From the NCBI GenBank assembly GCA_902795965.1, contig CADBNI010000038.1:1-33362 (forward strand): DNA of 33,362 bases. Direction: 5' to 3'. The DNA is from an uncultured bacterium (GTDB taxonomy: Bacteria > Cyanobacteriota > Vampirovibrionia > Gastranaerophilales > Gastranaerophilaceae). The stretch's first letter is position 1; the number at the start of each line of letters is the position of its first letter. Position numbers and translations under genes: made by a program. This document shows, one piece after another, positions 15,504 to 18,281 of the stretch. The notes beneath the pieces are model-generated. The model was not told the DNA's origin. It saw only the letters and a program-made list of their open reading frames with translations, and did not search any database.

Positions 15504-16041
15504 ATTTGAAAGACAAAAAATTAAAGATGTTATTCTTGTTAAGCCGAAAGTCTTTGGCGACAACAGGGGTTTTTTTCTCGAAAGCTACAAAAAATCAGAT
15601 TTTTTTGCCAACGGGATTGACGTGGAATTTAATCAGGACAACCACTCAAAATCAACCGCACACGTCCTTCGAGGACTCCATTTCCAAAAAGAACCATACG
15701 CGCAGGCGAAACTTGTCAGATGTTCCAAAGGAAGAATTTATGACGTAGCCGTCGACATAAGACCAAATTCCCCAACATTCAAGCAATACGTGAAAGTTGA
15801 ACTCTCGGAAGAAAACAAATACATGCTCTATATCCCGAAAGGATTTGCACACGGATTTGTTGTTTTGTCTGATGAAGCCGAGCTTTTGTACAAAGCCTCG
15901 GGTGAATACGCTCCCCAAGCCGATTGCGGTATTATATGGAACGACAAAGACATAAATATCGACTGGCAAATTGACTTTGAACCGATTTTATCGGATAAAG
16001 ATAAAGGACAGCTAACGCTGAAAGAAAGGGGCATACAATGA
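15493..16041 (+). CDS. rfbC: dTDP-4-dehydrorhamnose 3,5-epimerase
   Basis: RfbC (RmlC) epimerises dTDP-4-keto-6-deoxyglucose at C3 and C5, the third step to dTDP-L-rhamnose. The 182-residue protein has the cupin core: FNQDNHSKS, VLRGLHFQ with the catalytic His near residue 60, YDVAVDIR, and IPKGFAHGFVVLSD. The Tyr of the GEYAPQ segment is near 139, and the C-terminal IWNDKDINIDW is typical. The family usually has a longer TDYYAP-like segment where this has SGEYAP. It overlaps the preceding glycosyltransferase by 11 bases and the next gene by four (ATGA), which indicates coupled translation. Confidence 0.95.
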   Translation: MPFEFERQKIKDVILVKPKVFGDNRGFFLESYKKSDFFANGIDVEFNQDNHSKSTAHVLRGLHFQKEPYAQAKLVRCSKGRIYDVAVDIRPNSPTFKQYVKVELSEENKYMLYIPKGFAHGFVVLSDEAELLYKASGEYAPQADCGIIWNDKDINIDWQIDFEPILSDKDKGQLTLKERGIQ

Positions 16042-17024
16042 CCACAACACTCGTAACCGGCGGTGCGGGATTTATAGGAAACTGCTTTATAAGATTGTAT
16101 CTGAAAAAACACCCGCAAGATAAAGTAATCAACCTTGACGCACTTACTTACTGCGGAAATTTGGAAAATCTTGATGACGTCAAAGACAATCCGAATTATA
16201 CTTTCGTACACGGCAATATCTGTGACGGGAAATTGGTGCGCGAACTTGTCGAACAAGCTGATACAGTCGTAAATTTTGCAGCAGAATCACACGTTGATAA
16301 TTCGATTAAGCACCCCGAAATCTTTGTAGAAACAAACGTTCAAGGAACATTAAATCTCCTGCAAGCATGCAAAGAATTAGGTATTGAAAGATATTTGCAG
16401 GTTTCGACAGATGAAGTGTACGGAACTTTAGGAAAAACAGGCTATTTTTACGAAACAACTCCGCTTGCGCCAAACAGCCCTTATTCCGCAAGCAAAGCGG
16501 GAGCAGATATGCTCGTCAGAGCTTATCACGAAACATACAAGCTCCCGACACTTAACACAAGATGTTCAAACAACTACGGACCTTACCAATATCCCGAAAA
16601 ACTTATACCGTTCTTTATTTCTCAACTCTTAAAAGGTGAAAAAGTTCCCGTATATGGTGACGGATTGAATGTTCGCGACTGGTTATACGTCTATGACCAT
16701 TGCGAGGCAATAGATACGGTTCTTCACAAAGGCAAAATCGGCGAAGTCTACAATATTGGCGGACATAACGAAAAAACTAACCTTGAAATTACGCACCTTA
16801 TCCTTGATGCAATGGGAAAAGACGAAAGCTCAATAAAATATGTAGAAGACAGGTTGGGACATGACAGACGCTATGCAATTTCCAACGATAAAATTACCGC
16901 GGAATTGGGCTGGAAACCTTCCATAACTTTTGAAGAAGGGATAAAACTCACTATTGATTGGTATTTGAATAATCAGGAATGGATAAATTCCATCGAAAAT
17001 AAAAAACGAGGTATGGAGGTATAG
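16038..17024 (+). CDS. rfbB: dTDP-glucose 4,6-dehydratase
   Basis: RfbB (RmlB) oxidises and dehydrates dTDP-glucose to the 4-keto-6-deoxy sugar using bound NAD, the second step to dTDP-rhamnose. The 328-residue extended-SDR protein has GGAGFIG near residues 8-14, STDEVYG near 123 and the catalytic Tyr-Lys pair in YSASKAG near 149. RCSNNYGPYQYPEKLIPFF follows. The last four residues before the stop (GMEV) and the stop itself are encoded by the left inverted repeat of an inserted element, so the original C-terminus was probably slightly different. Confidence 0.95.
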   Translation: MTTTLVTGGAGFIGNCFIRLYLKKHPQDKVINLDALTYCGNLENLDDVKDNPNYTFVHGNICDGKLVRELVEQADTVVNFAAESHVDNSIKHPEIFVETNVQGTLNLLQACKELGIERYLQVSTDEVYGTLGKTGYFYETTPLAPNSPYSASKAGADMLVRAYHETYKLPTLNTRCSNNYGPYQYPEKLIPFFISQLLKGEKVPVYGDGLNVRDWLYVYDHCEAIDTVLHKGKIGEVYNIGGHNEKTNLEITHLILDAMGKDESSIKYVEDRLGHDRRYAISNDKITAELGWKPSITFEEGIKLTIDWYLNNQEWINSIENKKRGMEV

Positions 17025-17040
17025 ATGTATAGAGGTATAG
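17007..17040 (+). repeat. Left inverted-repeat arm of the IVP-type element
   Basis: A 34-base arm made of GAGGTAT-type units. It encodes the last codons and stop of rfbB, and contains the AGAGG site (17031-17035) nine bases before the ATG of the four-helix-bundle gene. Pairing with the distal arm in RNA would bury that site. Confidence 0.75.
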
Positions 17041-17044
17041 CTTT

Positions 17045-17401
17045 ATGTATCAAAAATTAAAAATTTGGCAAAAATCATTAATTCTTATTAAAGAAATATA
17101 TAAATATGCTGATAAATTACCTAAAAATGAAGAGTATAATTTAAAAGCACAAATTAAAAGAGCAATAATATCAGTAACATTAAATATAGCAGAAGGCAAA
17201 TGTCGAAAGACATCAAAGGATTTTGCTCATTTTTTAAATGTTGCATCAGCTTCATTATCTGAAGTTGAATGTATATTGTTAATATGTGAAAGTTTAAATT
17301 ATTTTAATGTTGATACAAAATTGTATAATGATATTAAATCTTTAAACAGGCAAATAAACGCTTTATGCACAAAATTAATAAAGGAAACAAAATATGAATA
17401 A
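17045..17401 (+). CDS. Four-helix bundle protein (23S rRNA intervening-sequence protein family)
   Basis: A 118-residue, strongly helical basic protein. The opening YQKLKIWQKSLILIKEIYKY, the central SVTLNIAEGKCRKTSKDFAHF and SEVECILLICESL are typical of the S23/IVP four-helix-bundle family (PF05635, TIGR02436). Relatives occur inside 23S rRNA intervening sequences and, as Avd, with diversity-generating retroelements, where Avd binds nucleic acid. No reverse transcriptase, template repeat or rRNA is present here. The gene is more AT-rich in codon use than the flanking rfb genes, supporting separate ancestry. Its end overlaps the rfbD start by eight bases. Biochemical function is unknown for most members. 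Confidence 0.9.
   Translation: MYQKLKIWQKSLILIKEIYKYADKLPKNEEYNLKAQIKRAIISVTLNIAEGKCRKTSKDFAHFLNVASASLSEVECILLICESLNYFNVDTKLYNDIKSLNRQINALCTKLIKETKYE
17380..17385 (+). promoter_or_regulatory. rfbD ribosome binding site supplied by the inserted element
   Basis: AAAGGA lies eight bases before the rfbD ATG at 17394, inside the four-helix-bundle coding region. It shows that current rfbD translation starts from element-derived sequence. Confidence 0.6.
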
Positions 17402-18281
17402 TACTAATTCTATACCTCCAGACCTCCAGACCTCTATACCTCGTATTTTGGTTACGGGCGCAAAAGGCATGTTGGGGCAGGATTTATGCCCGATATTGGA
17501 AGATAGCGGATATGAAGTTATTGAAACTGATGTCGATACCCTTGATATCACGGATTTTGAATGTGCAAAAAAAGTTTTGACGGAGCAAAAACCCGATATA
17601 GTAGTGCATTGTGCCGCATATACAAATGTCGATAAAGCGGAAGAAGACATAGAAACCGCAAGGCTGATAAATTCCAAAGGTACGGAAAATTTAGCAAAAA
17701 TTTGTGCGGAACTTGATATTACACTTGTTTATATTTCAACGGATTACGTGTTTGACGGAACAAAAAATGAGCCGTACAAACCCGATGATACCCCAAATCC
17801 GATTAATAACTACGGTTTAACAAAACTTGAAGGAGAATTGGCGGTTCAAGAGTATTGCAAAAAGTATTATATAACAAGGACTTCGTGGTTGTACGGTCAT
17901 CATGGCAAAAACTTTGTTGAAACAATGATTTCTCTTGCAGACAGAGCGGAACTGAAAGTTGTTGATGATCAAACAGGTTGTCCTACCTGGACTTGCGAGC
18001 TTGCAAACGGAATTGTAAAACTGCTTGATGGCAAACCGTACGGAATTTATCACGTATGCGGAAGCGGATTTACAACTTGGTACGGCTTTGCAAAAGAGAT
18101 ATTTAAAATATATTTGTCATTGCGAGGAGGCGAAGCCGACGTAGCAATCCCATTAACCCCCTGCACTACATCAGAATTTCCCCGTCCCGCAAAACGTCCG
18201 ACATACAGTGTTATGGACAATGACGGTATTTGCAGAAAATGGCAATCCGCCTTAAAAGATTATTTAACGTTGAGAGATTAA
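17394..18281 (+). CDS. rfbD: dTDP-4-dehydrorhamnose reductase
   Basis: RfbD (RmlD) performs the final NAD(P)H-dependent reduction to dTDP-L-rhamnose. The 295-residue SDR has GAKGMLG near residues 22-28, STDYVFDG near 123 and the Tyr-Lys pair in YGLTK near 140. TSWLYG is followed by [13 protein letters not shown] near the C-terminus. Two insertions stand out. Residues about 5-16 are encoded by the right arm of the inserted IVP-type element, ahead of the usual ILVTGAKG start. Residues about 241-253 ([13 protein letters not shown]) are encoded by a palindromic repeat placed in frame in a surface-loop region. All core motifs remain, so the enzyme is probably functional. Confidence 0.93.
17410..17443 (-). 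repeat. Right inverted-repeat arm of the IVP-type element
   Basis: This 34-base arm is complementary to 17007-17040 at 28 positions. It is translated as part of RfbD, giving [12 protein letters not shown], which is not part of the normal RfbD fold. Confidence 0.75.
18114..18151. repeat. In-frame palindromic repeat inside rfbD
   Basis: Begins tttgtcattgcgag and ends gtagcaatccc. Arms attgc (18119-18123) and gcaat (18144-18148) enclose a small ggc-gaa-gcc hairpin (18129-18137). It matches, from memory, the widespread bacterial palindrome of the form GTCATTGCGAG...GCAATCC. Here it is read through as protein sequence without a stop. Confidence 0.75.

Follow-up and report, generated by a model that had tools for sequence, protein, structure and literature searches.

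A putative intervening-sequence-like cassette between rfbB and rfbD that probably supplies the translation start of RfbD

Contig CADBNI010000038.1 of an uncultured bacterium, the whole 33,362 nucleotides of which are referred to here as the window, carries between the genes rfbB and rfbD a small cassette in which a single four-helix-bundle gene is framed by two inverted arms of short tandem repeats. We propose that this cassette probably belongs to a class of intervening sequence (IVS)-like mRNA elements found at operon gene boundaries and related to the IVS of 23S rRNA, and that in the window RfbD is started from within it. Such an element would consist of one four-helix-bundle gene between two inverted arms of about four 7-8-nucleotide tandem repeats each, and would sit in operon mRNA where one gene stops and the next, in the same direction, starts. 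The draft genome (G000) to which the window belongs, as contig C38, measures 1.81 Mb in 85 contigs, and its octamer repeats often lie at contig ends.

At this locus rfbB (dTDP-glucose 4,6-dehydratase; 16038-17024, on the forward strand like all features given here) ends ...ENKK-RGMEV, with its final five codons and TAG stop (17007-17024) read from the left arm (17008-17039), which is made of four octamers, GAGGTATG/GAGGTATA/GATGTATA/GAGGTATA, and whose terminal GAGG is likely also the ribosome site of the cassette gene. That gene (17045-17401) encodes a four-helix-bundle, or 23S rRNA-intervening-sequence, protein of 118 amino acids that matches PF05635 (E 4.4e-30, 104.5 bits against a curated cut-off of 33.8) and TIGR02436 (E 3.5e-29, 101.2 bits, cut-off 24) and has a solved homologue in PDB 2gsc (E 5.2e-17). 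Within its end lies AAAGGA (17380-17385), the putative ribosome-binding site of rfbD, 8 nucleotides 5' of the ATG (17394-17396) that opens the rfbD frame (dTDP-4-dehydrorhamnose reductase; 17394-18281; rmlD TIGR01214, E 5.5e-95); with the cassette stop TAA at 17399-17401, the two genes overlap by eight nucleotides. The RfbD core begins at 17445, and the 17 codons ahead of it (17394-17444) derive from the cassette and from the right arm (17411-17442; TATACCTC CAGACCTC CAGACCTC TATACCTC, inverted relative to the left arm), which is read within RfbD and adjoins the ATT codon of the core. A first-pass annotation of the same letters had placed the ribosome site and ATG inside the end of the four-helix-bundle gene, had read the right arm as the RfbD N-terminus before ILVTG, and had noted both the eight-base overlap and the rfbB stop supplied by the left arm; all of this is borne out by the sequence.

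Relatives show what the junction looks like when it is empty. A search of 33 genomes of the genus gave 32 full-length RfbD proteins and one weak match only, and 29 relative loci were read. In all 29, RfbD starts 0-2 residues ahead of an [IV]LVTG core, and the 17-residue extension, which was sought in these relatives, is present in the window alone. Twelve relatives have rfbB and rfbD overlapping or a few nucleotides apart, with RfbB ending ...KKELV and no extension on RfbD (for example ...EAKKELV and its stop, then ATGAAA, RfbD reading ATG-K-ILVTG), and in the remaining relatives another gene precedes rfbD. Judged by these RfbB C-termini and RfbD N-termini, about 20 nucleotides holding the final codons and stop of RfbB and the own start of RfbD appear to have been replaced in the window, the loss of that start following from the abutment of the right arm on the ATT of the core. 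Either the insertion or a later deletion would have taken these nucleotides together with rfbD's own ribosome site and ATG, and translation of rfbD would now begin at the AAAGGA-ATG inside the cassette gene, coupled to it by the overlap, and run through the right arm into the core.

Initiation at ATG 17394 is thus supported by the arrangement of the locus. It is quite unlikely that RfbD instead initiates beside ILVTG, at TTG 17448 or ATT 17445, the only competing starts in this frame, leaving the N-terminal extension as an unused open frame; the TTG does share the frame of the core, from which the starts in relatives are 0-2 residues away, but no ribosome site precedes either codon, whereas AAAGGA is well spaced from ATG 17394, the frame is open across the arm and the cassette end, and an independent case in another genome (G147, below) has the same layout. 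The earlier judgement that the insertion is not disruptive also stands, with the reading frames intact and the RfbD core differing from its closest relative by 0.17, 0.10 and 0.48 at codon positions 1, 2 and 3, values that are similar to those of other pairs and indicate that the core is still constrained. An assembly chimera or a pseudogene, which might be suspected from a genome in 85 contigs with repeats at many contig ends, is highly improbable, because the junction lies inside a 33-kb contig where the adjacent rfb genes are in their places, the reading frames are unbroken, the pattern of substitutions is that of a constrained gene and a second, independent case exists. Further into rfbD, a palindromic repeat, ATTGCGAGGAGGCGAAGCCGACGTAGCAATCC, lies in frame at window positions 18115-18160 and is read as 13 residues; it is not in most aligned relatives, and one of them, G099, has a different insert near the same position.

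The first-pass annotation was right about the window locus in observation and, with initiation at 17394 probable, in interpretation; its proposal that the insertion swaps the host start for its own needs one qualification, that such a swap is exceptional. Between rfbB and rfbD a cassette or its remnants occur in 8 genomes including that of the window, and at every occupied site read (G240 among them) the RfbB stop lies inside or just past the left arm; at the other occupied sites, however, rfbD retains its own ribosome site and ATG 3' of the right arm. One group of these sites also displays decay, the cassette gene being intact in G006 and G248, internally deleted in G155 and G196, and gone with the arms retained in G250, which is a deletion derivative of the cassette. 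Start replacement is rare, with two clear cases (the window and G147) among 60 cassettes of the family and a possible third (G136) in which the reading frame is ambiguous. In G147 a DegT-type aminotransferase, named from sequence, reads MSIHNSQLTIHN-IPVCEP in frame from the cassette, its start adjoining the cassette stop and the right arm being translated; in relatives of the same genus, whose protein is 94-95% identical, the junction is empty and the protein starts MT(T/A)ETKKQIFVCEP, so that about 35 nucleotides were replaced, among them the stop of the upstream gene and the start of the downstream one. From rfbD and this aminotransferase, start replacement occurred at least twice at unrelated genes. 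The two cases would mean that an element can seize the boundary between two genes and leave both unbroken, and that N-termini can change in one step.

The 60 cassettes come from a profile search of 239 genomes of the bacterial family for PF05635, 53 of which have a match above the cut-off; a pseudogene locus (G059) and short or sub-threshold matches were left out. Inverted repeat arms are recognisable in all 60, most weakly in G155, with a repeat period of 7 or 8 in 55 of them and a median of 4.4 units per arm. The units themselves vary widely (GTGACTAA, GTGAATA, GGCGATAA, GACGTTAA, GGCACTAA, GATGCAAA, GAGGTATA and others), and where one genome holds element lineages with distinct proteins, their repeats are distinct as well. 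When the left flank is compared with the reverse complement of the right flank, the median score is 50 within a cassette and 16 between different cassettes (n=60). For the window cassette a repeat search gave 77-94% complementarity between the arms, and since its own right arm is the best partner of its left arm (rank 1 against the right arms of the 59 other cassettes) and its RNA folds at z = -6.25 against shuffles, the match of the arms is not chance; the arms may well pair in the transcript. A search of the window for known RNA families returned a tRNA alone.

By 50-60% protein identity, arm similarity between cassettes is near background while both arms of one cassette remain alike; the arms diverge faster than the cassette protein. 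Across 276 cassette pairs, 1354 columns are altered on both arms yet still pair, and 1155 are broken in one cassette; these pair counts are not independent events, and they indicate that the two arms of a cassette change in concert.

Wherever both neighbours are readable, they appear to be co-directional with the cassette gene, in operon orientation, and frequent insertion sites are groES-groEL and rimP-nusA (both named from sequence, not profile) and the rfb genes. The upstream gene ends between about 30 nucleotides before and 44 nucleotides after the left-arm start in all but two cassettes, one at a contig edge and the other a locally duplicated element. Stops in all three frames are found in 42 of the 60 left arms, against 26% of shuffled arms. 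Since three does not divide the repeat length, the left arm would usually stop every frame, and the upstream gene could then be ended in whichever frame it is read. The right arm, often free of stops, can be translated from end to end, and usually no more than about 60 nucleotides past it comes the ATG of the next gene, preceded by a ribosome site of that gene's own; at most sites, then, the downstream gene would keep its own start. This orientation between co-directional genes would also suit an ordinary operon member or regulator whose arms form an expression-tuning mRNA hairpin with nothing mobile about it, as would the ability of the left-arm GAGG, the likely ribosome site of the cassette gene, to pair with the right arm. 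We regard this as unlikely, given the patchy presence of the gene (53 of 239 genomes), the empty and decayed sites, and arm repeats dispersed dozens of times in the same genome.

Dispersed repeats in G000 were counted by pattern searches and then read from individual stretches. The octamer pair of the window has 63 copies in G000, 21 in the relative G240 and none in 14 other genomes, and arms of the GTGACTAA and GACGTTAA types are likewise enriched in genomes whose cassette bears them, with some sharing. Many dispersed copies are compact hairpins without the cassette gene. A 14-mer, TAGTCTTTTACATG, occurs in four G000 hairpins and in the G240 cassette, where the ATG within it is the start of the cassette gene, and is absent from the other 10 of 12 genomes searched. 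Three pilin-like genes of G000 (L115, L131 and L134, on contigs C8, C46 and C52) have a leader before FTLAEV / FSLAEL that reads right-arm octamers, TSIPPYLYTSKK, that of L131 also holding a second palindromic repeat. The shared TAGTCTTTTACATG and the arm octamers in these leaders suggest that the short hairpins are gene-less relatives of the cassettes, in a direction that is unproven. Two other arrangements were seen, namely a composite larger repeat of GTAGGTAAGTAGTCTTTTGGGGCTAAAGCCCCAAAAG joined to an octamer array (L109, L111, L114, L117, L118, L128, L129 and L148) and, in G162, long direct GTGAnTAA octamer arrays of tens of units, at a contig end (C51:1-311) and inside a contig (C58:10029-10251).

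It is doubtful that these hairpins are spread by a REP (repetitive extragenic palindrome)-type Y1 transposase or a reverse transcriptase with the four-helix-bundle gene as a passenger. Gene-less hairpins are common, Y1 transposases occur in 7 of 16 genomes and reverse transcriptases in 6 of 16, and no cassette gene was detected in G099, which does have repeats of the GACGTTAA type; however, Y1 transposases are missing from G000 and from several more genomes rich in repeats, and many cassette genomes have no reverse transcriptase. As general drivers both were rejected, the Y1 transposase being absent from G000 and eight other genomes and a reverse transcriptase acting in trans from 10 of the 16 genomes tested. 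The best candidate for the recogniser of the repeats appears to be the four-helix-bundle protein, since it is the product of the sole gene common to cassettes, these other enzymes are missing from many genomes, and different proteins within a genome go with different repeats. We infer that it may recognise or spread the repeats, and that the cassette may be mobile and processed as RNA.

A survey of bacterial genomes and viral contigs extended the cassette beyond the family, yielding 102 distant relatives, of which 50 show arms at z >= 6 against shuffles, the threshold for calling them, mostly with period 7. The arm-bearing relatives come from Bacteroidota, Planctomycetota, Acidobacteria, Anaerolineae, Clostridia, Kiritimatiellaeota, candidate phyla and viral contigs, and where neighbours are callable the most frequent layout is again between co-directional genes. 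This fits the position of a four-helix-bundle gene listed in a Flavobacterium columnare genome table between guanylate kinase and nicotinate-nucleotide adenylyltransferase (PMC5524665).

Several points weigh against an IVS-like mobile element. About half of the distant relatives have no clear arms by the z test; comparison with the empty sites that were read showed no target-site duplication, and sites also show deletions; the cassettes of G000 and G240, which have GAGGTATA-type repeats in common, may go back to a single insertion; the case is built entirely from sequence; and we know of no catalytic activity for the cassette protein. PF05635 proteins are widespread, and to our knowledge a function has been assigned in the Avd branch only. 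In many phyla their genes lie between paired arms of lineage-specific sequence; these would offer a direct handle on what the protein recognises, and are a larger result than the start replacement. It is conceivable, and we put it forward tentatively, that PF05635 proteins are the dedicated partner of a class of bacterial mobile elements, forming rings that bind the tandem 7-8-nucleotide repeats, spreading lineage-specific hairpins at the boundaries of genes and renewing them in concert, at sites where host stops and starts could be rebuilt; that each subunit might bind one repeat unit is speculation. A Xanthomonas homologue has been reported as a pentamer (PMC4990558).

Four known systems resemble the cassette in part. 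In REPIN (REP doublet hairpin)/RAYT (REP-associated tyrosine transposase) and MITE (miniature inverted-repeat transposable element) systems, a single-copy gene is accompanied by many short dispersed hairpins sharing its flanking sequence. The cassette also pairs a gene with dispersed hairpins sharing its flanks, and short copies with the ends of the autonomous copy, as in MITEs, were found; unlike REPIN/RAYT, G000 has no Y1 transposase (PF01797), and the units are 7-8 nucleotides long and differ between element lineages. The TAACTGA repeats of Beggiatoaceae and cyanobacteria are likewise short tandem heptamers near start codons that overlap gene ends, but they are one fixed heptamer and direct rather than inverted, and S23 or four-helix-bundle genes are not mentioned in that report (PMC4679880). 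Avd of diversity-generating retroelements has a homologous four-helix-bundle fold (PMC10053308), whereas the window contig has no reverse transcriptase match and the cassette protein scores 24.6 bits on the Avd equivalog model against a cut-off of 80. Elsewhere in G000 (C48:52429-53953) a weak PF05635 match has a reverse transcriptase beside it, and the two are probably the Avd and the reverse transcriptase of a diversity-generating retroelement.

The 23S rRNA IVS was the subject of the work that a literature search found; no description of such arms was met with, most subscription journals and preprints being outside its coverage. Like the window cassette, the IVS of, for example, Coxiella burnetii is a 0.4-kb insert with inverted ends, an S23p/PF05635 gene, a patchy distribution and a stem in the transcript (PMC4990558), and terminal inverted repeats able to form a stem are present in the window cassette too. 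The arms of the latter, however, are 7-8-nucleotide tandem repeats that vary by cassette, whereas the Coxiella stem is 28 bp and is cut by RNase III in vitro (PMC4990558), and the 23S IVS lies in an rRNA gene, the window cassette instead at a protein-coding stop/start junction between rfbB and rfbD. We therefore class the cassette as a variant of the IVS/S23 kind rather than as a 23S rRNA IVS.
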